A stretch of DNA of 64,000 bases from Gamsiella multidivaricata (lineage: Eukaryota > Mortierellomycota > Mortierellomycetes > Mortierellales > Mortierellaceae), in contig NW_026251823.1 in assembly GCF_025024155.1 (NCBI RefSeq), positions 27,007 through 91,006 of the forward strand, read 5' to 3'. The translations under genes were made by a program, and so were the position numbers. This document shows positions 13,032-61,531 of this stretch, piece after piece (positions within the stretch are counted from its first letter, which is position 1; the number at the start of each line of letters is the position of its first letter). The notes under the pieces were generated by a model, which searched no databases, was not told where the DNA came from, and was given only the letters and a program-made list of their open reading frames with translations.

Positions 13032-13932
13032 TTGTCGAAAGTGGGGTCCACTGTGAGTAGCAGTAAATACGAAGGGTGGCCTAACTGCCAAACGAGACAG
13101 AAAATAAAGAGAATACTTGTTAATACGTTGCCCCAGTCCGCAATGAAAGCTGTCTGTCTAGATCCTGACACTTGTTATGGCTCACCGAAATACAAAATAT
13201 GTCGCGACAATTGAGGTCGTATTCCGTGTTTGGCTCTCTTTCATCCAGAGGCTCGTCAGTATGTCGTTGAACTTTATGCGAGCGTAGAAATCCCGAAGCA
13301 TGCAGTCTGCCGCGCGCCTCTGGCCTGATGGACACCATGCACATAGAGGTCTCTTTGTGGTGGTTCACGACGGGATTGAGTCCTTCATGTCGCCTAATCC
13401 AGTATATCCCACTTCGCTTCGCTGCAGCTGTAAGAAATGGATCCTGATCACTACCTCTCGAACCATATTTATGACCTTAGTCCCAAATGGTGCGTCTACC
13501 CTCTTTGTGTCCTTTCTGTCTGTCGAGGCACCCTTCTCCAGTTCTATGCAAAGGAAAAGCAATAGAGGTGACTCAGGATTCAGCGTATTCAGTGTCTCCT
13601 AGCACAAGGGTTCGTAAAAGCATGGGGTAGTCTAATTCTATCGCGTACTATTTACTCTGAACTAGATTAACAGCAGCTTGTGTCCAGAAAATGCGCTCCA
13701 ACTTTATGCTTGGTTATGGTTCGTGTAACCGCCTCCACTGTGAAAAACGGGACAGCTTTCTCTTTCGAATCCACGAGGTACAACGCCCGATCACCATGTC
13801 CTGCCTATTGATCGCGATAAGGCGTTGAAATTTACCGATTAGCAGGCAAGTACCGGACTATCCCTTAGACCGTCTCAATTGGAAAGAGAGACAACCACCT
13901 AGGATAAATTTTAACTAATACGGCCAGTACAG
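13032..13932. other. Gene-poor spacer between SGNH relic and copy A
   Basis: About 900 bases with no recognised gene. The part just 3' of copy A (on its minus strand) is where a guide RNA would be sought if the element follows the TnpB/Fanzor layout. I see no clear hairpin there. Confidence 0.5.
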
Positions 13933-16557
13933 TTATTCTTGCTGGGGTCGGCGAAGGGGCTCTGGGCGAGACAGGCTACTGATCCATTCGAGGTCAATAT
14001 TAGCCAAATTCTGAGCGCCCACGCAGTCCCTGTCTAGCCATCTCTGGCACCCATCCTCAAGACAGACGAACGCCCGATTCGCTGGCTTTGCCATTCTTCG
14101 GTCCTTGTTTTGTCGTACACAGCTTGGGCATTTCGATGACGTGAGATACTCATCCGAACAAACGACGGTGTACCCGAGGCTGTTTGCCTATGTAGTGCAA
14201 TGGCATGCGGAAACATGGCATCAGTATCGATACTAGACTGAAAACAAGCAAATCGCAACGAATATCTTTAAAACAACATACCTTGTGGAAAAAATACCCC
14301 TTGAAGCTCTCGTGTAGCGATACCAGCCTGGTATGAGTGTTGAACTTTCCTGACCCGTGTACAAACATCGCTGGTCTCGTTGGCCCAGTATGCATCCCGC
14401 CTTGTGGGTCCAAGTTCGCAATGCCCCATGCACGGCATGATCCTTCTCTGCCCGGTTCGTCTTTTTGAGCTCCCACAGCTTTTTTTCATCGAGCGGGATC
14501 CGTAAAAATCGCGAAGTGGTTGTAGGACATAGCTGAACTGTCGAAAGCCGTGCCGGTGTTCTTCCATGCTTACGAATGACGACGACGGTAGCGAGGCTTC
14601 TAATTCGGATATGCTAGGCGTCTCGCATGTATGCCCGCTTAATCCTGTAATGTCTTTGATTGTGACAGTGGTCCGTTCGCGTTTTTTGGCCTCCAGCGCG
14701 ACTCTGAATGACAAACTGGGACTGTAGAGAGCGGAGCGTCTGATAGGTAAGTTCGTGACTTGGTTCGGTTTTCGGGGGTCCAGCGCACAAAATGATGCTG
14801 AAATTACTTCACCGGGGTCCACCCCCACCCCCACAACATTCTGGAGGTCTTGATCGAAAGCCTTTGCGAGGGACCCTTTGTTAGGAAATCGCGATGTAAT
14901 CTCCGGGATCCGCGCCTTAAATTTGGATGACTGTCAACGTCGTCGTATGCCAAATGCCATTAGGTGGAGCTGGACTCCGTCTGTTCTCATCATATTGCTG
15001 ATGGCATAGTGCCCCTTGACGCTGTCATTACTTGGGGGGCCGGGGGACACGGGGGGCTCCGTGCCTTCGGTAGCTGCTTGCTTCCTGGCCTTGTGATTTG
15101 CAAAGACCCTCTTCATGTACCCATCGAGTGCAGCTTGGCTGTATGTGTTTGGATGATCCTTCAGCAATCGGTTCATGGTCGTTGTTTCCTTGCCATATAA
15201 AGTTTGGTTCTTGAGGGGATCCGCCTTGATCTCGACCTTGTCTCCGATAAACAGTAGTCGGAAAAGCTCCCCATATTTCTCTGATGCAAGTTCGTGGGCC
15301 GTCTCGGAAGAGCAGACTTGAGATTCCATGATATGCCGTGTAGGGTGCGTCTTTGAATTTGGATTGCCCCAAAGAAGTGAAAGAATGGCAGCCTCAGAGC
15401 ACAAGATGAAAGAGTCTCCCAACTTCGACACTGGACAGAAAATAGGACGCAACTCCGACGGCACACGGAGAAAGTACCTCCACTAAGTTTGGATGTGCCC
15501 CTTCTTAAATGACACCTTGTCTTTCTGTTTATCGCCGTCGGAGCTCTCGTCATCCTCAACTGGAGGTATATCATCCGCACGCTTCAGCTAATAGAAACAA
15601 GAAATAAACGTAAGTTCACAGTGGAAAAGCAAATCGACGCGAGATATATCTTGTTCCGGACAGTGGAAATGTTACCTTGTTCACAATGAACTTGGGCAGT
15701 CTCTGGAAATGCTTTCGAACCCCGGTCCGGACCTCCACCGCCAGTTCCGCCTGGATGACGCTCAGGGGTATATCTTGGCAGTCCTTTGTCGGTGCGTAAT
15801 CTGAAAGAACGCTCAGGAAATCGTCATAAATCGAGCGCGCAATTGTTTTCGCCTGAATTGCCGCCGAGTCTTTAGATGGTCTCCCGCAGGGCGCTACTGG
15901 ACCATTCAGAATCAAAGAGATCAGATTTCTGATGATAGTTTCTCCATGTGCCTTGTGCAGAATGAGATCAAGTGGGTCCGCGTTCTTTTCCTCCTTGTGC
16001 TGGACTTTCGGAGCACTCGCTTGATTGACATCAGTGCCCAAGTTCTGATCTGGTGCCGGGCGCGCTTGATCCAAATTGGATGTGGTGGTAGTGCTGACCT
16101 CCTTGTAGAGAAAAAGTTCGAGCGCTTTAAACACGAGAATACGAGTTTGGCTCATGATGCGGACCGCCTCGCTGATGCGTTCCGCGACAATCTGGTCTGG
16201 ACTACGTTCAGCTTCGTGGCGCGGTGCAGGCATCCTGTGATCGACCCTGCAGTCATTGTGGCAGCCTTGAAAGCCTCACCGAACAGGTGCTTAGTCAGGT
16301 TAGCTCCAGCTCGCCTCTCCACTTTTTCACCATTCTGCTCGTCCTCCTTGGACTTCGTCTTGGTTTCACTCGCGGCCTTAGGATTGTCATCCATGCTTCC
16401 GTCCTTCTTCTTCCGCGGGCGCGGTTCCTCGATGGACATCTTTTCCAATGCGACCTTGTCGACCGGGCATGACTGGCTGACGCCCATGACAACGTGAGGG
16501 GAATAACGAGGGTTGGCATCTCCATTCCTGCTCTTGTACCTAGGGGACAATCCCAAA

Positions 16558-16591
<34 letters not shown>

Positions 16592-18392
16592 AATAAGATG
16601 ATTGTACCAAAGCGACAAAGCTGTAAAAGGTCGTAATGAATTTGAACTCGCTAACAAAGTCATACGACAATCATACCTGCTTCGTCTCCATTTTGCCTCC
16701 CGGGCTCTTTTACGTCTTGTTTTGCCTTTGGGGCGTCGCTTTCTCCGTTGCTGGGCGTTCCCTTTCTCGTGTCTGCGGCGACGGCGTCGGGTCTGAAGAA
16801 TCATCTGCTGTCCAGGCGTCTGCAGGCTGTGCTGGACAGGGGAAGAAAACGCCAAGCCTGCAGAAGTGTCGCTGGTGAGTGTATCGGCTGGAGAATTTGT
16901 CCGCAAGACTCGAGTCATATTTCTCCTTTGCAGCTTGCACTTCTCGAGCTTCTGGAGTATGCCCAGTATTCTCTCGTGGGTCGTGCACGATGGCTTAGCG
17001 GAGTCAAGGTAGTCCTCACGCACTTGAACGAAAGCCGAAATGGCGTGGGTGTAGTCGTCCACACCCTTTTTTTGTCCTCCTCTCGCCCGTTGCAAATACT
17101 CTTGGATCAGCTCCTTGATAATCTCAGCCTCAGTCGTCTTGGATCCTGGCGCGTCCGTTGTTGATCCATCGCCTGCTCTGGTCTCAGTCCTCATCTCTCG
17201 GATGATCTTGGTGTTTCTTTGGAAGCCGCGCCACGGGAGCGCCTTGGAGTAATCGTTCTTAGTAACGATTGATGCCAGCAACAGCTCACGGTCGCATGCG
17301 AGGTCCAGAGACTCGAGCAGGTCAGCCTTCTTGTACGTGGTAAGCTCTCGGTACTTTCCGACGGATATAGTGATTTCTCTAACACCTTGATATACCATCA
17401 TATCACTGTCGGCGGTAATGATTGCGAGGTCGTCTTTGTTGTTATCAGCTTGATACAACTCGGCAATGTGCGTGTCTGCTTGGAAGGGAAATTCGCAGGT
17501 GTGCCACTCCAAGGTCTCCAGCCCATTTCTTATGTCTGCCAGCGCTGCCTTGGATGTCTTGTACGCGTTTCGACATTGCTTGACAGGGGGGCCAAAGAGC
17601 CGCTGTTTTTTTTCTATGGCGTTGTCAGCTCGCGCTTCCAGAGCCTTGATCCGGTTGCTGAGGGATATGGCCCGACCTTGTCGCTCTTGAGACTTTTGTA
17701 TCGAGGCCTTTCCGTCAAAGTGTAGAACCGTGGTTGATTTGCTAAAGTGCTTTGACATGATTTTGTTGAGGTCGTGCGCTATATGGCCGTAATTCTGTGA
17801 CTAGAGATGAGGCGGGGTCGAGGAACGAAGCAACAGAACATGTGTCAGCGCTTGATTGCTATGCTGCGTAAGCTGATACGAAACCATTGGCACATTTAAT
17901 TACCTGCTCTGTTGTTCCAGGTCGGTCTGGTGTCAATCGTCCATTAGGGCCAATGAACAGTGCAGGATGTTGCACTCCGGTAGCCTGTATCTCGCTCGCA
18001 TAACTAGAGCAAGCCTTTCCTCGCTTGGATGGAGCCTCGGAGAAACTCAGGGCGCGCTTCTTGATGCCGCTTCTCCTGCTAGTGCTGGCGTCTGCAGTTG
18101 AAGGCGCGTCTTGCGCTGCTGAGGCTGTGGAGACTGCAGGGACTGTGGGGACTGCGAGAAAAGTCGCCGTTGCTGTTAGGATAGAAGCCGCTGATGCGTT
18201 GGTAATTGTCGTAGCCGTTGCCTCAGCTCTCGCTTCCTTGGCGACTCTGTTACACGTCGCTTTGAAGGCCCTTGTTTGCAAGAATCCGAAGTACAGACTT
18301 AAGACATCGACATGAACTTTCTTGCTCTGCAGACCATAAGCTAGCGTTCCTTTGGTGTCTTTTATAGCTTTGGGTAGCCCAGTGACTACCAT
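13933..18392 (-). pseudogene. XPG-nuclease/Fanzor fusion gene, copy A (decayed)
   Basis: Five exons can be read: 18392-17904, 17800-16677, 16539-15676, 15587-14282, 14187-13933 (about 1,346 codons). Exons 1-2 encode a FEN1/XPG-like module: N-terminal MVVTGLPKAIKD, an Asp in VHVDVLSLYF, Asp in LHFDGK, the Asp pair in TADSDMMVY, and Asp in TKNDY. One Glu of the usual Glu pair reads Gln (FQADTHIA). A K/R-rich linker leads in frame into exon 3. Exon 4 carries RTDGVQL and the RuvC-I-like GVDPGEVISAS. Exon 5 carries KCPSC ... VCLEDGC and LDRDCVGAQNLANI (zinc ribbon plus RuvC-III Asp). Lesions: a frameshift near 16200, TAG at 15485-15483, TGA at 14936-14934, and two frame changes between about 14495 and 14420. 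Domain identity is strong; the gene is not functional as read. Confidence 0.75.
16563..16589. repeat. Poly(A) tract in an intron of copy A
   Basis: Uninterrupted run of 27 A on the plus strand, inside the intron between exons 2 and 3 of copy A. It may be slippage or the tail of a small retroposon. Confidence 0.8.
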
Positions 18393-19569
18393 CTGGTACA
18401 ATAAAGGCCAAGTCAAAGTAGACAGCTAATGAGGATCAAATTTGGTGCACGTATCCATTCGCAGAAGCATTCAAGACTCACATTGAGAATATGCGACAGT
18501 GCTTGAGGGCTGATAAGGGAGTGGATGAGGAAAGGAGTGGGGTCAAGGATGTGAGGAATGATGTTTCTTTTAAGACTCCAAAATCTACGTCCAAAATGTG
18601 TGTATGTTCATGCACTATGCTATAGAAATTGCAGTGTTCACATTGATTATTGATTATTTAATTCGTATCTAACAGGGATTGATCACTGTTCTCATAAACC
18701 ACCTAGACTGGGGCAGCGAAAAACTGCAGTTGCTGCAAGATAGTGTATTTCGTGTCAGGAGGGGGCCTGCGAGAACATTATGGCGCCATAGGCTTCTAGA
18801 CTGTAGTCTCCCTGGAGGATAGCAACAAGAATGAAGGTAATCATTTATTCTAGTCAACTGGATTGTTAATTAACAACGTGAATTTCTGCAAAGGCCCCTA
18901 AAATTCAGCCCTGTATTCCTTTGCCAGTCACCCTTAAAATAATTTGGAACCGATATGAAGGATCGATTCATGGGAGTTATTTTGTGCTAGATCCGCTAGG
19001 AGCTATGCGAGATTTTGGTCAATGTGCAGAATATGTCGTTCTCTTGAGTAGACCCTGACCTTACTGGTCCTCTGCTTTTCGTTTATCGCTTTCCAGCTTG
19101 CCGAGGGATTCACATGGTGTTCCGGAGTGGACAGGCCCAGAGTACGGTCCAACTTGCACTTGAAAACGTCTGTCAGCAGTCAGAGGCCCACAGACAATAA
19201 TTGGAGGATCAAGAGCCGAGGAAGGAAGAGCAAGAGAGCCATGGTGCTTGCGAAAGTACTGTTAGCCGGTGGTCCTTGTTCCTCCAACTTTTTCGTATTG
19301 CTGAGTTGGGCAAGGCGATAGAGGTCTTCCGATCCAAGGCCATTCGCCGCCGCGTTGAAGTAGAATCCCCATTGTGGACACAGCACCTCAATCACGGAGC
19401 GAGCCTTCCCCTATTCTCAAACACCGAAAACAGGAAACTCTTGTGCTCCAGTCCTTCCTAGGACACGTTTGGTCTGAGTCGCTGGGGGAAGGAGAGGAGG
19501 GGCAGGACGTACTGTATCTGGAGGCCCGCAAAAGAGCAGTCAGCGCCAATACGTCGCAGGGTCGAATCA
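18393..19569. other. Accessory spacer, no gene recognised
   Basis: This region lies upstream of copy A on its coding strand. Only short frames are present. Minus-strand frames at about 19209-19460 may be the continuation of the neighbouring Crinkler-like relic, but I could not align them to a known C-terminal domain. Confidence 0.4.
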
Positions 19570-19715
19570 ACCACTGAACGCCTCGGAATCCAGCGCGTCA
19601 AGTAGGGTGACATCGTGTTTGACGGTAGTGAGGACAGGGATCGAAACGAGCCAGATAGTGAGCGCGGCCGTATCCACGTTGCTGAACTCGGCATCCTTCT
19701 TGGCCTTGATACTCT
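19570..19715 (-). pseudogene. Crinkler (CRN) N-terminal domain fragment
   Basis: A minus-strand frame reads IKAKKDAEFSNVDTAALTIW then LVSIPVLTT, ending near LLDALDSEAFSG. This matches the second half of the ubiquitin-like header domain of Crinkler proteins, whose consensus has KLIKAKK, DVDADKLTLW and VSIP. The upstream half is missing exactly where the piggyBac-like element begins at 19717, so the insertion may have cut it. Downstream the frame decays. Crinklers occur in oomycetes and in several early-diverging fungi. Identification rests on about 50 residues. Confidence 0.5.
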
Positions 19716-19716
19716 G

Positions 19717-20729
19717 TATCCCTTACTCTGTACGACGTGACGGGCAAATTTGCCCGGCAAAATGAAAATTTCCCTATGCTACAGTCATGTAAATTATTCA
19801 AAGTTTTTTACTCCAGGTCTGTGGGTTGTGTGTGATATTCTTTGAAACAAGGTCTGGCGCCATTGCTACACAAGGGAACCTTGCATATCTGGCACCAGAT
19901 ATTGCTTTGGAAGGGGTTCTTCTGGCTCATGTAGATCTGCTTGGTTTGGTATTTCCAAGAACACAGCATACAGGTCCCTCGATGCTTTCGGGTCACTGGA
20001 AAGTGGTTGTCATCGGTGAATCGGTCATTGGGGAGTTCAAAAGGTCTTTGTCACTCGAGGTCATTTCCAGACAGTGTCATCCTCGTTCTCGTCTCCCTCC
20101 TCCACAGCATTGTGGCGCCGTGCCTTGCTTGAGGTATGGGCCGAATCGATTAACCCCCAGATAAGAGAGCTGCGAAACTCTTTGTGCGTGAGAAGGGATC
20201 CTTTTTTTCGGGCTATGAGATAGGTGTTGATGATAGTCGTATCCAAGAGCCAGAAAAAAATTGGCATCCAGTTCCGCCGCGTTGTTGACTGCTTGCTGTA
20301 GTAGGATCGAAGTTGGTCGGTAATATCAACTCCACCCATATTGCAGTTGTAATCATCGATGACCTTTAGGATCTTGAGTTCCTTCCTGGGAGAGTTGCCA
20401 AAAATTGCTCGCACCTTTGCTCCGTTTGTACTTGTTTCTCGTGGTCGGCGCCGTTTCGAAGGACCTCCCATTCCGCACCTGCAATCCCGTAAATCGTTGT
20501 TATCATCGTCACCGGTCCATTATCCTGCCAGAAAACGACCAGTACTCCTCCAACCACAACTCCAGACCGAGTATCCCAACCCAACTTGGTGCTCTTTTCC
20601 ACCTGTGCTCTTTCGATCGAGCTTAAAGACCAGGGAGGGGTGGCTAAACAGAATTTCGAGATAAAACGAAAAAACGCTGTCATTTTATTTTAACCGGGCA
20701 AATTTGCCCGGTGTACAGAGTAAGGGATA
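19717..20729 (-). mobile_element. piggyBac-like DNA transposon relic with terminal inverted repeats
   Basis: The element is bounded by inverted repeats. The left end reads TATCCCTTACTCTGTAC inward from 19717, and the right end reads the same inward on the minus strand from 20729. Each end has a subterminal perfect palindrome GGGCAAATTTGCCC (about 19742-19755 and 20695-20710). Sequence similarity between the ends stops at TATCCC/GGGATA, giving an element of about 1,013 bases. A decayed piggyBac-family transposase lies inside on the minus strand. No TTAA duplication is visible at the outer borders; the flanking dinucleotide is TA. A TTAA occurs inside, beside the right palindrome. Confidence 0.65.
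19808..20683 (-). pseudogene. piggyBac transposase (DDE_Tnp_1_7), C-terminal remnant
   Basis: Three minus-strand frames, separated by frame changes, add up to the C-terminal half of a piggyBac transposase. The first (from 20683) contains STKLGWDTRSGVVVGGVLVV and ITTIYGI. The second (from about 20471) contains NCNMGGVDITDQLRSYYSKQ and WMPIFFWLLDTTIINTYLI, the family signature around the last catalytic Asp. The third (19996-19808) is the C-terminal Cys-rich finger with CMLCSW, CQICKVPLC and CFKEYH. Frame changes lie near 20480 and 20050. The N-terminal half and first DDE residues are absent, so it is not autonomous. Confidence 0.75.
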
Positions 20730-21072
20730 ATGAAGAAAGACAAAGTTGTAGCCCTAGAACACAATCATTACCTTTACATCCATGCATTGGTACTGTGTAA
20801 GAGCCAGGCGTCGAGGACCGAGGTGAAAGGGTTTGCTCCAAAGACGGTGGAAGTGTTGAATCAGATGAAGGATCAAAATCATTCTGGTTGGCCTGTGCTT
20901 GTAAGTGGTCAATTTCGTAAAGCTCTCCTTGATAAGAAATCTCCATGCCCTTATAGACCTTTGCGGTTAAATACATATGTTTGCACGGCGCCTGATGTTG
21001 AGCATAATAGTTGCAGCGACAGGCAGCAATGATGGCGAATTCTTCGTCTGTACGGACGTCATATGTAAGACT
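20730..21072 (-). pseudogene. SWIM zinc-finger fragment (MULE-transposase-like tail)
   Basis: A minus-strand frame reads DEEFAIIAACRCNYYAQHQ followed by APCKHMYLTAKVY, a SWIM finger (CxC...CxH). It is followed by a low-complexity Ser/Pro tail and MHGCKGNDC. SWIM fingers of this form sit at the C-terminus of Mutator-like transposases and related fungal proteins. The catalytic region is missing, cut off on one side by the LTR-like stretch and on the other by the piggyBac-like element. The protein family is therefore only partly resolved. Confidence 0.45.
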
Positions 21073-21368
21073 TGTGGGTGAGCGAGGAACAACGAGGTGA
21101 AAACGAGGGAGACGAGTGAACAAGGTGAGTGAACAAAGACGAATATGTGAAGACAATAGTTTATTGACTAGACTGTTGTGAGTATATGAACTGGGGTTCA
21201 ACTATATAGTCTGTCTTCCCTTATATACATCAGACGAATAAAGGTCCTGATTAGTAATCCATGGTTCTAGACGTTTCGGTGCTGCCTTTGCTCATCTTTA
21301 CATCATGGAGCTTTCTGTGATGAGGGCGACGTTGATCCAATCTTAGACGCGTCTAGCGTCACATGACA
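21073..21368 (-). repeat. Possible solo LTR
   Basis: On the minus strand this about 296-base stretch begins TGTCATGTGACG and ends CTCACCCACA. It contains a TATATAAGGG box and an AATAAA signal in the order promoter then polyadenylation, as in an LTR. Upstream and downstream five-base flanks do not match, so no target duplication supports it. It abuts the SWIM fragment and lies just 5' of copy B. Confidence 0.35.
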
Positions 21369-21578
21369 ATACCAATCAGAGTTAAGCTCTGACATGAACC
21401 CACGCGTTACAGCACTGATCACTCGTTTTCCTTCCTTACTTTAAACCTCATAACCTCATCGTCTTTGCAGATTCCCGACATCCGACCTCTTTTCCATTGA
21501 ATCGATCACATTACTTCAGCTAAACACTACACATTCGACAGCAGCTCTCTCATCGCGCCACTCGACGTACAGGAAGTG

Positions 21579-24500
21579 ATGGGTCTTAAAGGCTGGTACG
21601 CCTTTCTTCGTAAGAAGGGTTACCAACCCTCTGTACTTTACCTATCAGCCGCGTCAACAACCTCGAGCACCGCCACCAGAAGATTCGACCTTCTCTCTCG
21701 CTTTTCAGTCATCAGGAATGCTTATACACAGAACTCCATCGAGATGGCCCATACGGTCCTAGAGCTGGATGTCATGCGGTTCGGGACCAAGGAAAACACC
21801 ATTATCTACGTCGACGGAATCCAAGCAGAGGAGAAGGAGTTCACTGCTCAGATCCGCCAAGAAGCTCGGGAGAAGACCACTAAGCGTTGCAAAGAAAGTG
21901 TGGATGAACTACAAAGACGGATCGATAACAACCTCAAGGTTCGTAAGCGACACTCCGCCGATGCCTGGACCAGCCTTGCGTCCTCCTTCTATTGGTCCCT
22001 GCCCATCCGTGATGCATTTGTCAAGTATATGCAGGGTGAGGGGTGGAACATTCAGCGATGCGAGACGGAAGCTGATGTTGTGATCGCTCAGGATTGCAGA
22101 TTTGACGATATTGTCGTGTCTGCGGACAGCGATATGCTCGCGTACCCATCCGTGTCAAGTCTGTGGCGCCCGATTTCAAAGAACTTGATTCTGATCTACA
22201 AAATATCGGATATCTGTGAGGTTCTCGGTGTGTCCAGGATCCAACTCACGGCCCTCGCTGTTGCCTCCAACAACGACTACGGAAAAAAATATCTACTCTC
22301 TTGGACCGGCGACCAACTTTTCGATTATCAAGACGATCAAGAAACAAGGTAAATATCAATGATCAAAGTATTAAGGAGCGAGGCTGAACCATTTAACTAA
22401 TATATATTTTTTTCTACTTTTTTTTACCCTATTTTTGCAGATGTGCGACAGACGTGAATGCATATTTGGAAGACTCCAAGGTCGTTTTAAAAATCACAGA
22501 CAACAAAACACTTGAACTTGCACTCAGAGTCTTTGTTAATCTCCAACAGACGCCTGTCAGCGATCCTCGCCCTTTGTCCAGCGTCTCGTCCTACAGTGAG
22601 CTTTACAAACAACTCAAGGATCTTTGTGCCATGTACTAAGAGAACAAGGATTTTCGCGCACAACTGCAACCAAGGTATGCTATATTTCTGTTCAATATCG
22701 CACGGCATTTAGGACTTGGCATCGGCAATCATCTCACAGCTCACCTTACTTATTGTTTTGATGTCAATAGTACTCGCAAGGATCGGATCATCCGCCTCCG
22801 CTCCTCACAGTCTTTCATTCGATATAGGACAGTTGAGTCTCCAGCTATGTTGAAGCCTGGCCTTGGGTCGCGCTTACCACAGCCGCCATCACCGCAACCA
22901 TCCTCGGCACAACCACAACAACCTGCACCGATTCTGCAGGATAACCCTTCGACCACATTACCGTCTCAGGAGTCAAACGGTCACCCGCCGCTTCCAAGGA
23001 CGCAATTCCCACGAAATCGCCATCGTTACTCATTCAAGACGAGGACAGGGGCAACAAACCCCCCACCCCCAGTCAAGATGAAGCTCTACAAGTTCAAGCC
23101 TTACAAGGAGCCTGAAGCAAAAGACGAGCTTGAGCCCTCCAGCGACGAGCCCAAGCCCAAGCCCAAGCCCAAGACCAAACTCAAAACGTTGTCCGATTCG
23201 AGTGCAGCCACCCGCAAGCTCGCTTTTACACGGTTATTACAATACCAGCACCCAACGTCTACTTTGAACGTCGGTACTCTATCCGCTAACCTCAGACGAG
23301 CTCTGCCAAACGACGGTACCGTTCAACAGGAAGTTGCCCTCTGTATCCGAAACGCTGTGCGCGAGGCTGCCAGGATCAAACGACAAGGTCAACGAGTAAT
23401 TGGAAAGGTTGTCGAGCATGTGAACAAGCATGAACCGGGTCCCAACGATCGTCGATTCATGAATTTTCTTTGTCCTCGAGTCTCCATGAAGGACGCGAAA
23501 AAACTGGATGACGGTTGTGCTGCAGAGGACGACGATGAGGATGGTGGTGACATGGACCAGAAATCCAAAGATGGCAAAGGCTCTGAGCAGTTCTTGTTCC
23601 TCCAGAGCTTTCTGGCATACCTCTACTCTGGGAACTACCCACGAAAAAGTGGTACCGGTCAGAAGGTCAACGATTTCATTGATCGCCTCAAGGATCTCGG
23701 ACTGTACGCCCCACCATGTCCTCGGGCCGCTCTCAACGAGACAACTCCCTTCTCACCAAAAGAGTTACTCCTATCGGTGGCGTTGCAGCTCAAGGTCGAA
23801 CTCAAAAAAATGTACCGTAATGGGACCTGTGAGCTGCATAATAAGGTATGAGTTGAGGGCACTACTGGTCATCTTAATGTACATCAAACCGATACCTATC
23901 ATGTCTCTTATTTATTATTTTCTATCTTCTCAATTATAGCTCCAGGAAAGAAAAAAGAAGGGGCTGCTGGGATCCGATGTTAACGTGGAGGTCCAGGAGG
24001 AGGTATCTGCTATCGAAAACTACCTCGCGATCAACAAATTGAGTCCAAACCCTCGTAGGATCATCCCCATGTCGACGGCGAAGCAACCTTTTGTCAGTTT
24101 CACGGAACGACAACTGGCTATGTTCTTTTTCAACTGCGGAGACGCACTGAGGGCACGGGTTCAGGAACTGGTCGGTACCGTCTGCACATCCATGCGGGAT
24201 GTTGAGGAGCGGATAGGAGGAAAAGAACCAGGCTTTCTCATCAAGCACCTCATCGTCGATATCGATCCCGAAGACCTGACCAGTCGCAAGAGAGGCAAGG
24301 CTGGACACCGCGCTGCGATCAAGTTGTTATCCCTTGATGATCTCGAGACCCACTTGCAGATGCTGGACGATCCAGAGTTCAGACCGGAGACCTATGCCCG
24401 CAAAGGATATTTTCTCAGGGGGTTCTTACGAACTGACGGATTCACTATGCAGCTCCTGTGTTCCAAAGTCAGGGAACTTCTGTCAGTCAAATACAAACGG

Positions 24501-25909
24501 TTGCCCGGCGATCGCCTACCTCCTCGATTGACTTCAACACTTCACGGTACCAGTGATTTTTTGACGGAGATCCGAAACGTTATCCGAACCAAAGACGATG
24601 TGGCGAGACTTTGGCTTGGTGTCGATCCTAAAGATATCAAGATTCTCACCCTTGACGCAGGACAAGCTTTTGTCGTTGGAGCATATGCATACCTACCAGG
24701 AAAATCGATGAACAAGGACGAGTCCACTTCCTTCAATGGTGCATTCCCTATCGCCTCTTACTCCACAACAACACCACAGGATCTGATGCAAAAGCCGTCT
24801 TTGGAGGCACAAACAACTTCAACACCACAGGATCTGATGCAAAAGCCGCCTTTGGAGGCACAAACAATTTCAACACCGCCAGCAACAATGACAGTGTGAC
24901 AAGATCCCTCACCACAATCTTACCGTCAACCAGAAGGCCGTGATGCAGCCTGTCTTCCGATATAGACGCTGGCTCGAGGATGAGAAGCAACTGAAACCAG
25001 AGGGTCCAGAGCGGCAACATCAATTGAAACCGGATATCGGGTTACAGTCGATTGCGCATATCGAGTCCCAGCTCCCACCTCTCCAAGGTCCAGACACCAG
25101 TGTCACCAACTATATTGAGGAGTTGAAAAAAGTCGAGAACCGACTCTTGGAGTTCTATAACGGGGACAACTTTCGATTCAAGAAGCACACATGGGACATG
25201 AAGAGAGCCAAGCACATCGAGTACCAGGCTATTGCCAACAGTCTGCTTGGAATCGTTGGCGGTAGCATTGGTGAACGTCGAGCCAATGATAATCCAGTGT
25301 TGATTGGTGTGGGCCTTGGCCAGTTCGGGAGCAGTAGTCGACTGTCGTCTCTCCACTCATCGTTTTTGTCATACTTTGTCCCTTTGGTAAGCAAACGTTT
25401 TGTTTTTTGTATCATTGACAATATTTTCTGAGGATTGAGTGCAGGTGAATAACTTATTTTAATTGTTGTAATTAGGCGCGGTCCCTCGGGTATATTGTCG
25501 TCGGTCTTAATGAGTTTTATACCTCAAAGAAATGTCCGGATTGCCACCGGTTTGTGGCCGAAGTCACCCTTCGACAATTCTTCTGCCCCCACTGTGGACG
25601 GTATCACCACAGAGATGTCATGGCAGCCGAGATATGTCCCATATTGTACGAGAGTACCTGTTGTACCAAGAGCGACCGCGATATCTGCACCCTGCTGCAG
25701 CAGACGGCAGGTATCCATGGATGGAATCATTGAGTTCAGGACAAGGGACAAGCGTCGAGGCGGCTGTCGGAATTAGTGACTCCACCCCACCGATCCAGGC
25801 CGGTGGTACTCGATCTCGGAAAAAACGATCGACCTCCAGTTCGACTCAGCAGGAACGTCCAAGAAAAATGGCCAACATTTTGTGTGTACGGCCACACCCA
25901 CCCACGTGA
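21579..25909 (+). pseudogene. XPG-nuclease/Fanzor fusion gene, copy B (decayed)
   Basis: Five exons: 21579-22348, 22441-22674, 22771-23845, 23940-25386, 25476-25909 (about 1,320 codons). Exons 1-2 encode a FEN1/XPG nuclease: MGLKGWYAFLRKKGY, Asp in RRFDLLSRF, Asp in IIYVDG, Glu pair in CETEADVVIA, Asp pair in SADSDMLAY, and Asp in SNNDYGKK. Intron phases carry this frame into exon 3, broken only by TAA at 22637-22639. Exon 3 has a Pro/Gln-rich linker and a KPKPK patch. Exon 4 has RTDGFTMQL, LTLDAGQAFVVGAY (RuvC-I-like) and SSRLSSLHSSFLSYF. Exon 5 has KKCPDC ... FFCPHCG and HHRDVMAAE (zinc ribbon, RuvC-III Asp). Frame changes occur near 24850-24900 and near 25615-25630. Beyond the last, the frame resumes with HIVREYLLYQERPRYLHP and a basic tail. 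Confidence 0.78.
24771..24876 (+). repeat. 51-base tandem duplication inside copy B
   Basis: Two near-identical 51-base units (TPQDLMQKPSLEAQT in the open frame) lie right before one of the frame changes, between RuvC-I and the conserved MQPVFRYRRW segment. Neither neighbouring copy shows it. Confidence 0.8.
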
Positions 25910-26899
25910 TGATTACAGGGGCGTTGATGAATTTATGATGACGTAGATAACGCCCAGATAGTCCTGTTTTCAACTTGAGATTTGGCAGTTTCTTCTATCG
26001 GTTGTCGCCCTTTTTAGGTAATGCGAATGGGGAGCACAATAAGGTTGCGACAAGGGTGTGGAGTTGTGCCATCATGGACGAGGGATGAGCCCGTGGAAGG
26101 GAAGGTAGCCCCCATCCTCTCTCTCTTTCCCAGAGACCGCGCCATGTGTGGGGATCCGAACGAGAAGATACGGCTGCTCTCTGGCCTTCTCCACAGACGC
26201 AATTGATTGGCCTGGACCTGTTAAATAAATACTTCCGAGGCATTTTCATTTTCCATTCCAGCTGTTTCCGGGTCTGGCGCCCCCCTCCTCTCTCTCCCCC
26301 CCCCCCCCCCAAGCTCTTCTCCCTCTCCACATTTCATAGTTCAACATCGCATGGTAAATTGTTGGGTCTGAATGAAGGTAGCAGGACTGGATGGGCCTTG
26401 GCATCCATCCCTTGAGGACGGACGAACAAGCGAGTAATAGACTACACCCATGGTAGTCTAGCCGTTGAATGCATCCATTTCTTTGCTGCGTTGCATATCC
26501 TTTCCCTTCCTCTTCCTCTTCCTCTTTTCCTTTTGAATAGGACACTGCAATCGGATGGGACCCTATTGGCGGGTCCTCAGCAGATGGATGATGAAGTCAC
26601 TGCACCGCACTCTAGTATAAATACCAACGCTTGTTCCTCTCTCCTCTCTCTCCATTCGTTGATCTCTCCCCCCTCTTTTAATTCTTCTCTCGTTCGTTCC
26701 TCTCCACTCTCCACTCCCTACTCTTCACTCTCCACTCTATTTTCTCCGCACTTCACACTTCACACCCCACACTCTGCACCTCGTGTTTCCCTTGACGTTC
26801 TTACTCTTGCACTCTCCACTCTCCACTCTTTACTCTCCACTCTCCACTCTCTCCACTCTCCACTCTCCACTCTCCACTCTTAAACTCTTACTTCCGTCA
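25910..26899. other. Spacer and promoter region of the carnitine acyltransferase gene
   Basis: The first part is the 3' flank of copy B, with a short perfect inverted repeat GGGCGTT/AACGCCC at 25919-25955. A C-run lies near 26298-26311. From about 26690 to 26885 the plus strand is an array of imperfect CTCTCCACT units directly before the next start codon. No gene recognised. Confidence 0.6.
26690..26885. repeat. CTCTCCACT-type tandem array in promoter/leader
   Basis: Many imperfect copies of CTCTCCACT and CACTCTCCAC. The array ends 15 bases before the carnitine acyltransferase ATG, so it probably forms part of the promoter or 5' leader. Confidence 0.8.
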
Positions 26900-27784
26900 A
26901 TGGCTGTCTCTGCACACTCTTATAATATGCCTCCACACACTCAGCCTCGAGGATCTGTGCCAGTCTCCAATCCCACTTTCATGCCCAACAGTTGCCAGTC
27001 GACTCCCTCGTCCTGTGCTTTGTCCGTCAACAATGACGTAGGGGTCATGGACAAGGGCCAAGACCAGCTGCCGTCCTTACCCGTCCCTCCTTTGGATCAG
27101 ACCTTGACAAGATACCTAGAGTCGATCCGACCCCTGACTTCCGATGATGAATACAACCGAATGGCCGATGCAGTCCAGCAATTTAATCAGTCCGGTCAAG
27201 GCCCTTCGCTTGACCAGAGGCTGCGTAAACATGCCAAGGAATGCGAAGCGAGAGGCACGAGCTGGTTGGCAGAGTGGTGGGATGATTGGGCTTACTTCTC
27301 ACACCGCGACTCGTCCACGTTCTTTGTCAACTACTATTTCGGATTCCAGGATGATCCGCGCATGCCCACCCAAACAGCCCGCGCTGCGCTGCTCGTCAGT
27401 CTTGCCCTGGAATTCAGGCAATTGATCTCAAAGTAAGTGCTGTGTGCCATGCACTGGTTGTCATACTGCGTGTTGCACTGTGTATCACCGTGTATCACTG
27501 TGTATATTGCCCACATGGCGTTTAATCTGAGGTGTCTGGTCACTTGTACAAGATGTTCGGACGTTCTTATTATCTCGGCTTTGATCTCCATATCGATGAC
27601 ATATTTACAAGTGTACGGATAATTAAGGTTCAGATTTTAATGCGGACAATATCAGAAGGGCCTGGGCTCATTCTCAGAAGTGTACTCTAATTTTAAATGC
27701 GATGCTGGTATTTCTCATCCTGGTGCTGCAATTGGGAGCCAGAGAAGGAACCCATTTACTTCTATATCCCTCTCCTTCTCCTGG

Positions 27785-60890: not shown

Positions 60891-61212
60891 CGCTATCGGT
60901 TACTGTCTGTGTAGCTTCCATCCAAGGATATCTACCATTCTCATCTACAGGCTGAAGATAGAGTGGCCTCTGTTGCTGAAGCAAGTGCCCTTGAATAACG
61001 TTGCAAATACTGTGGCCCGCCATGATATCGCGGTGCATGTATGTCTTGCAAGTCTTGCAATACAGCCGACGTATTTGAACCTGGCCGACAAACTCCTCGC
61101 ACATCGGACACTTCTTTGACGTGTAGTACTCATTGACGCCCACGACAATATACCCGAGCGCCCTTGCCTAACGGACACAGAACGTAAGGCGCCTCATTAG
61201 CGTCATCAGTAG

Positions 61213-61213
<1 letters not shown>

Positions 61214-61251
<38 letters not shown>
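61214..61251. repeat. T19-A19 tract in the copy C intron
   Basis: 19 T followed directly by 19 A, a perfect palindrome that can fold on itself. It sits inside the only visible intron of copy C and could also be a site of sequencing or assembly error. Confidence 0.8.
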
Positions 61252-61255
<4 letters not shown>

Positions 61256-61531
61256 TCGAATGTCTTGCAATGAAGCACTAACCCTTTGAACAAAGTACGA
61301 TTGGAAGGACTCATGTAACGAGGAAAGTCGTCTCGTGGATGAAAACTTGCCTAGACCAATGCCGATTACAACCTTGTCCTCTTCATCTCGCTGTCTACCA
61401 AGCGATCCTCCAACCATATTGAGCAGGCGATCTGCGATGATGTCGAATTCTGCCTCTCTAGCTTTTCTGGCATCCCACTGGTGCTTTTTGAATGTGGCGC
61501 TTTTGTTGTAGAACTCGTCGAGCTGCTCCTT

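Follow-up and report, generated by a model that had tools for sequence, protein, structure and literature searches.

The window analyzed here, a 64,000-nt stretch of the forward strand of the Gamsiella multidivaricata contig NW_026251823.1 (positions 27,007-91,006), contains two copies, denoted A and B, of a gene in which an XPG/FEN1/EXO1-type nuclease is followed by a Fanzor-type RuvC nuclease with a zinc ribbon. This fusion is real and is found beyond the window. On balance, A and B are probably decayed copies of a gene family that resides on a MULE (MuDR)-type transposon, with an intact protein that combines a FEN1/EXO1-type nuclease with a Fanzor and acts by a cut-and-resect mechanism. As predicted from the sequences, the intact product would comprise approximately 1,200-1,350 residues and consist of an N-terminal FEN1/EXO1-type 5' nuclease, a linker with a helical region, and the Fanzor RuvC and zinc ribbon domains.

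Two damaged copies of the fusion gene

Copy B (21579-25973, plus strand) includes five exons and a right-end hairpin. Exon 1 (21579..22348) begins with MGLKGW, encodes the XPG/FEN1-type nuclease core and is frameshifted within the A-run at 22283-22289. Exon 2 (22441..22674) encodes a linker, is one base off the frame of exon 1 (it is readable from 22442) and contains an in-frame TAA at 22637-22639. Exon 3 (22771..23845) encodes a further part of the linker and the helical region 5' of the RuvC part, which is followed in exon 4 (23940..25386) by the region of the RuvC-I aspartate (LTLDAGQAFVVGAY), with a frame change and a stop codon near 24897 (24897-24899), and in exon 5 (25476..25909) by the zinc ribbon, NEFYTSKKC..C..C..C, and the HRD motif of RuvC-III, with a frame change near 25628. 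The hairpin (25912..25973, plus strand), a putative omega-RNA scaffold, has a 3' arm that stops 1 nt from the element terminus. Exon 4 also contains two 51-bp tandem repeats that are 96% alike (24769-24870, plus strand).

Copy A (13859-18392, minus strand) has its start codon at 18392 and coding sequence to about 13933, with the right end located beyond. The XPG N region (MVVTGLPKAI...VHVDVL) is encoded in the exon 1 open frame (17859..18392; the exon end is approximate), and the XPG I-region (FDGKAS; ITADSDMMVY; KNDYSKALPW) in the exon 2 open frame (16295..17800), which continues into the next intron. The exon 3 region (open frames, 15616..16589) changes frame near 16.19 kb when compared with the sister locus L030, and the exon 4 region (open frames, 14268..15482), which encodes RuvC-I (VGVDPGEV), contains a TGA at 14934-14936. 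The zinc ribbon/RuvC-III exon (DEYLTSSKCPSC...DRD) occupies 13933..14187, and a right-end hairpin (13859..13906) ends at the element terminus; all these features are on the minus strand.

The Cas12f1-like zinc ribbon of Pfam (PF07282) is detected in both copies, scoring 31.7 bits (A) and 49.9 bits (B) against the cut-off of 26.3. The Pfam XPG_I match in copy B is weak alone (E = 0.0059, below the cut-off), and no Pfam XPG match was found in the XPG exon of copy A; a profile of the family XPG parts, A and B included, retrieves RAD2 among the solved structures (E = 3.4e-7), followed by FEN1, XPG and EXO1. These matches bear out the preliminary description of this DNA, which recognized, in both copies, a Rad2-family nuclease in the first exons and TnpB/Fanzor-like RuvC and zinc ribbon motifs in the last ones. 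Its claim that the phases of copy B close with a single TAA does not hold, given the presence of at least three frame changes, the mismatch between exons 1 and 2, the TAA and the further stop. For the closure between exons 2 and 3 that it reported for copy A, a counterpart (phase 2, GT-AG) is found in the sister locus L030, as one of four closing donor/acceptor pairs yielded by a scan. A itself carries the TGA and the frame change. Because both copies are broken, any single gene model in the window is doubtful.

A large gene family in the Gamsiella genome

The 37.5-Mb genome contains 109 matches to PF07282 and nine matches to Pfam XPG_I. Four of the latter are high-scoring and presumably represent housekeeping genes; the other five are each located about 3 kb upstream of a same-strand PF07282 match, above the curated cut-off. 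When three XPG parts were used as queries, at least 107 merged XPG-like loci were identified (the matches of the first query plus 15 and 3 lines from the other two that were judged uncovered, merged within 1.5 kb). A zinc ribbon follows on the same strand, up to 9 kb downstream, in 59 of the 107 loci, and at a distance of 2.5-3.4 kb in 45 of these 59, compared to only 5 and 10 cases for the control arrangements with the zinc ribbon upstream or on the opposite strand, respectively; 48 of the XPG loci and 51 of the zinc ribbons have no partner. The gene is multicopy, in agreement with the preliminary description, and the paired architecture is far more common than the control arrangements. Among 20 loci that were inspected, 13 contain the XPG part followed by the RuvC and zinc ribbon parts on one strand, and no XPG part was seen in the other seven (L015, L021, L022, L024, L025, which is cut by a contig end, L027 and L028). 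In L027 and L028 (about 8.5 kb), a tblastn search with the A and B parts detected only the 3' zinc ribbon end, a pattern reminiscent of the 3'-overabundance that Bao and Jurka 2013 (PMC3627910) describe in some Fanzor families.

The introns are of the GT-AG type and occupy homologous places, in phase 1 after the XPG exon and in phase 2 after the next exon. The first junction is in frame in L011, L016 and L012, and L017 has the same visible bases; L010, L014 and L019 are seen incompletely at this junction. The second junction closes in L012, L013, L018 and copy B. The L012 model, from the XPG start to the zinc ribbon stop, spans 1,274 codons and is interrupted by two nonsense codons and a frameshift. 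Computation on these loci indicates that splicing would join the two halves in frame in the better copies.

Fusion proteins in nine genera of Mortierellaceae

Protein searches with the L012 model (28 proteins), with a profile (12 proteins) and with the Fanzor half of the protein P0011 (85 proteins) yielded 106 distinct proteins from nine genera, all of them in Mortierellaceae: Mortierella, Linnemannia, Podila, Dissophora, Entomortierella, Haplosporangium, Benniella, Gryganskiella and Actinomortierella. The taxonomic limit is not proven by these searches because only about 8,000 candidates, those sharing most words, were scored in each of the three. Hidden Markov models (HMMs) of the modules, built from the Gamsiella genome's own copies, match the XPG part in 77 proteins, the zinc ribbon in 64, both in 46 and neither in 11; XPG without the zinc ribbon is found in 31 proteins and the reverse in 18, a number of which are labeled partial. 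The XPG part starts first in all 46 two-module proteins, in nine of which the first-listed XPG match is shorter than 100 residues, and among the 43 proteins that reach 1,100 amino acids or more, 35 match both modules. Full-length gene models underlie, for instance, P0005 of Podila verticillata and P0001 of Entomortierella parvispora. Some members are named in the database as either "XPG-I domain-containing" or "Cas12f1-like TNB domain-containing" proteins.

The preliminary description had proposed to look for single Mortierellomycotina proteins with both Pfam profiles, and P0005, P0006, P0045 and P0054 carry PF00867 together with PF07282. The contrary outcome it named, with the modules always encoded separately, does not agree with the 46 proteins matching both halves, although 31 of the proteins match XPG alone, 18 the zinc ribbon alone and 11 neither.

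Two proteins of the set have other additions. P0106 (Linnemannia hyalina KI688_012256) combines a Cas12f1-like zinc ribbon with PF16787, which we take to be NDC10_II, a domain associated with Crypton-type recombinases; this predicted protein may be a further Fanzor fusion, or else the product of two gene models merged into one. P0027 (Entomortierella parvispora EMPS_09942), named a NACHT domain-containing protein, carries the family XPG part (61% identity over 13% of the query), owing either to exon capture or to merged gene models. We also considered whether the fusion arose in viruses or prokaryotes; scans of viral and of prokaryotic contigs with two short XPG-derived patterns each found no relative of the fusion, and such an origin is weakened to the small extent that such scans allow.

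Active sites, divergence and predicted structure of the two halves

Alignment of the 46 two-module proteins, with gapped sequences omitted at each site, indicates that both active sites are conserved across the nine genera. The seven XPG acids, which we take by eye to be the equivalents of the FEN1 residues, are kept in 27 of 28, 33 of 33, 39 of 39, 40 of 40 (with Asp for Glu), 40 of 42, 41 of 41 and 43 of 43 aligned sequences. In the RuvC half, the first aspartate is kept in 44 of 44 sequences, the glutamate of NEYYTS in 43 of 44 and the RuvC-III aspartate in 44 of 44. The Fanzor C-terminal motif, D-X(125,275)-[TS][TS]-X-X-C4 zinc finger-X(5,50)-RD, as defined in PMC3627910, is present in P0011 as D877, T1066-S1067, C1070/C1073/C1087/C1090 and RD 1096-1097, and each of these positions, the R aside, keeps its residue in 40-44 of 42-45 aligned proteins. 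The metal ligands of SpuFz1 are E541, D383, N385 and D606, according to the main text of PMC10432273; E541 likely corresponds to the NEYYTS glutamate.

In distant pairs, the ratio of nonsynonymous to synonymous differences (pN/pS) is 0.28-0.42 for the XPG exon, 0.36-0.42 for exon 4 and 0.15-0.38 for the zinc ribbon exon, with synonymous change between subfamilies at or near saturation. In close pairs, the values are 0.37 (B/L026), 0.64 (L013/L018) and 0 (L013/L017, one exon), with too few changes to weigh. The distances of the XPG and Fanzor halves correlate among 33 proteins (r = 0.744, reached in 0 of 2000 permutations; 0.686 without P0028).

The preliminary description also suggested a structural comparison. 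In a Foldseek search with a full-length model of one protein, EXO1 is ranked first, the SpuFz structures take ranks 2, 19 and 32 (9ceu: E = 5.5e-8, probability 1.00), and PpFz takes rank 36. The closest folds to the XPG half are EXO1, FEN1 and XPG. No Fanzor is present among the 50 rows shown of a VIA comparison because the XPG domain fills the list. The model points to the presence of both an XPG fold and a Fanzor/TnpB fold in one protein, with matches to EXO1/FEN1 and to the SpuFz Fanzor, as suggested.

A passenger gene of a probable MULE-type transposon

Computational evidence shows the gene to be a passenger of a DNA transposon, which is probably of the MULE (MuDR) type. The right ends are sharp, common to related copies and located soon past the stop codon, at 96-152 nt in L017, L012, L009, L023 and L026; in L011, an earlier in-frame stop lies 381 nt before the element end. 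Upstream of the gene, on the opposite strand, paralogues encode a multi-exon transposase with the motifs CMDSTHK, KFMVDCS..E..A and TNNLVESWHKTLK. When joined, the transposase pieces match MULE (PF10551; E = 6.8e-4, 20.5 bits vs the cut-off of 27.6) and ZSWIM1-3 RNaseH-like (E = 5.9e-4), both below the cut-off, and no MULE match emerged when the transposase exons were scanned singly against Pfam. The N-terminal exon of the transposase yields 24 merged hits in the genome (26 matches less one C47 fragment and with two C96 pieces merged), 16 of which are divergent from an XPG exon at a distance of 130-1044 bp. In the window, a remnant of this divergent transposase is found upstream of copy B (20683..21201, minus strand; CRCNYYAQHQAPCKH), with a fuller form in the paralogues; it has no Pfam match, and CRCNYYAQHQAPCKH is, by eye, presumably SWIM-like.

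The most complete case is C122, an element of about 7.7 kb that extends from about L032:2996 to L012:6235 and is flanked by an exact 9-bp target duplication, GCTTGGATG; one repeat directly abuts the right end, and the other lies at the left end. The search for target duplications covered 16 sequences that represent 14 copies (L012 and C122 are the same element, as are L019 and C101), and none was found in C101. The 9-mer matches in L016, A, B and C101 are shifted or displaced and were dismissed as chance; the match for copy B, at 15317, falls within copy A, with no element end after it. The best ungapped inverted match between the ends of C101 is 25 of 45 positions, with 23 for the next best, and no long terminal inverted repeats were found at the element ends.

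The right-end hairpin, a candidate omega-RNA

The 3' untranslated region (UTR) has a common layout, with a small hairpin past the stop codon (by folding in L017, L012 and L023; by eye in others) that is followed by a long hairpin. The 3' arm of the long hairpin lies within 0-2 nt of the terminus in five subfamilies with quite different sequences. The z-scores for folding of the 3' UTR are -3.44 in L017, -3.78 in L012, -2.73 in L009, -3.48 in L023 and -0.74 in L026. As a control for the hairpin itself, other 70-nt windows in the same loci were counted if they were as stable and closed in the same way; 1 of 1113 in L012, 1 of 1185 in L023, 3 of 699 in L030 and 22 of 1213 in L026 are as good as the right end. 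In L014 and L019, the full hairpin is not shown, the windows being misplaced by 2 and 1 nt, respectively. The left ends of C122 and C101, folded over their first 75 nt, have no comparable long hairpin closing at the terminus. The right-end hairpin appears to be placed as a guide-RNA scaffold would be, with the guide beyond the end. A search of the window for known RNA families produced no Rfam match at gathering scores.

Proposed mechanism and alternatives

A most likely mechanism can be outlined for the intact system. The 3' UTR with the right-end hairpin would give rise to an omega-RNA scaffold, with host sequence past the element end serving as the guide. The Fanzor half would then cut a matching site from which the element is absent, such as the donor locus once the element has excised, and the FEN1/EXO1-like half would trim or resect the 5' ends of the break. 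Repair would thereby be directed toward recombination with a copy that contains the element, which would restore the element or let it home (copy-back). A role of the fusion in homing or repair, which the preliminary description proposed, is a reasonable conjecture. That the protein is a complete natural single-protein RNA-guided cut-and-resect system, with a working EXO1/FEN1-type half and its own right-end RNA guide, that drives homing or retention of the MULE transposon is a more tentative proposition, to which we give somewhat less than even chances.

Several observations speak against these interpretations. All copies that were inspected closely in the Gamsiella genome are damaged, so that current activity in this fungus is unproven, and the first splice junction fails in L013, L018 and B (indels) and in L023 (different donor), and meets a stop in L009. 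Of seven family proteins scanned for Pfam XPG_I, only P0006 is above the cut-off (28.1 vs 24.9), five are below it and P0002 has no match. The whole structural model has a pLDDT (predicted local distance difference test) of 63.7 and a pTM (predicted template modeling score) of 0.39, with low to moderate values for the RuvC half (33-78 in 10-residue blocks); the Foldseek output does not include the model residue range of the Fanzor match, and the rows of the VIA comparison mainly cover residues 2-297. With respect to the transposon, the MULE match falls below its cut-off, the target duplication is seen in one of the 14 copies tested (the left side was fetched further only for C122 and C101), and the best ungapped inverted match between the C122 ends is 24 of 45 positions, one base off the terminus, with 23 for the next best. 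As for the hairpin, position and folding are the sole grounds for the omega-RNA reading; L026 folds no better than shuffled sequences (57 of 200 as good), control windows as good as the right end number 50 of 1186 in L017, 66 of 1756 in B and 143 of 1828 in A, each unremarkable alone, and the right-end hairpin could act as DNA for the transposase.

Other explanations of the fusion have to be considered along with the cut-and-resect mechanism. FEN1/EXO1-type enzymes act on branched and recessed ends, and the gene is divergent from the transposase over a short common 5' region; hence the idea that the XPG/EXO1-like half assists the MULE transposase by processing 5' ends or branched intermediates as the element excises or integrates, and is merely co-packaged with the Fanzor half. 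The XPG part, however, is joined to Fanzor in 46 of the 106 proteins and the halves co-diversify, which makes such a helper role unlikely, with the reservation that a fusion of XPG to the transposase was not searched for. The XPG half might instead mature the guide RNA, by trimming the 5' side of the 3' UTR transcript and freeing the omega-RNA from its own mRNA. Its closest folds, EXO1, FEN1 and XPG, are DNA enzymes, and the known Fanzors, as described in the main text of PMC10432273, use guides without an XPG-type domain, so that this role appears quite unlikely.

The remaining alternatives deny that there is a single working protein. The modules could be separated by alternative splicing or promoters, or by cleavage of the polypeptide, as might be suggested by the 31 proteins with XPG but no zinc ribbon and the 18 with the reverse, a number of which are partial. 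The GT-AG introns have homologous positions and close in frame in L011, L016 and L012; together with the long single gene models in nine genera, they render separate products improbable. Finally, the XPG and Fanzor genes could be chance neighbors or be combined by a gene-prediction artifact, a suspicion that is invited by the two broken copies and the doubtful gene model in the window. Chance adjacency is judged to be refuted because the modules are paired in 59 of the 107 loci compared to 5 and 10 for the controls, and because 46 of the 106 proteins contain both; the tight gap between the modules, the gene predictions in many genomes and the co-diversification of the halves likewise make this explanation extremely improbable.

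Relationship to known nucleases and transposons

The C-terminal half of the fusion resembles the fungal Fanzor1 proteins, such as SpuFz1 of Spizellomyces punctatus (9ceu, 8gkh) and PpFz of Parasitella parasitica (9cf0), in the D...TS-XX-C4-zinc ribbon...RD arrangement of the RuvC domain and in its location on a DNA transposon. Unlike Fanzor1, the fusion has at its N terminus an XPG/FEN1/EXO1-type nuclease (about 290 residues), which a long linker connects to the Fanzor part. The similarity extends to TnpB/Cas12f (the TnpB-like L79, 9b0l, presumably of a mimivirus; LaTranC; Cas12f) through the zinc ribbon/RuvC-III profile match (9b0l, E = 4.9e-5), but the fusion is fungal, and we know of no TnpB/Cas12f nuclease with an XPG domain. 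The N-terminal half differs from EXO1, FEN1 and the XPG/Rad2 family in that it is fused to a RuvC nuclease, transposon-borne and multicopy. The main text of Bao and Jurka 2013 (PMC3627910) describes Fanzor1 in the MuDr-type elements ROr-4, PBl-3 and MCi-4 of Rhizopus, Phycomyces and Mucor, with 9-bp duplications and without a MuDR transposase. The elements described here similarly combine a Fanzor with a MuDR/MULE-type element and a 9-bp target duplication; in contrast to ROr-4, PBl-3 and MCi-4, a MULE-like transposase divergently adjoins the gene, and the Fanzor is fused to XPG.

Each half is already known, as is Fanzor in MuDr-type elements; the fusion itself is apparently undescribed. Literature searches, which covered mostly titles and abstract openings, found no description of a fusion of Fanzor with an XPG/FEN1/EXO1-type nuclease and, among the papers searched, none pairing the words Fanzor and XPG, consistent with the preliminary description, whose author likewise knew of none. 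The words XPG and flap are absent from the main texts of PMC10432273, PMC3627910 and PMC10711439, and XPG and FEN1 from PMC11423790.

If the cut-and-resect reading of the fusion is correct, the system would make it possible to test directly the reason for which transposons retain TnpB/Fanzor genes, namely, to cut the empty site and force recombination. Fanzors are under development as eukaryotic RNA-guided genome editors, and engineers deliberately attach exonucleases to cutters of this kind. In the present family, a nuclease of the RNA-guided type appears to have been joined to an end-processing nuclease by evolution, with both active sites kept across nine genera. The product may be a natural cut-and-trim machine and, if the proposed mechanism holds, would be a ready-made single-chain enzyme for cutting and end processing. 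The family also adds a Fanzor lineage with a probable MULE-type transposase in the same element.

Other features of the window

A third RuvC/zinc ribbon 3' part is located at 60916..61531 (minus strand) and shows 76% identity to P0011 over 91 residues; no XPG part for this piece was found within the 64-kb window. Between copies A and B, at 20064-20519 (minus strand), there is a remnant of a piggyBac/IS4-like DDE transposase (PF13843, E = 6.6e-6) that belongs to a family distinct from the MULE-like one. A degenerate CTCTCCACT simple-repeat tract is present at 26700-26900.

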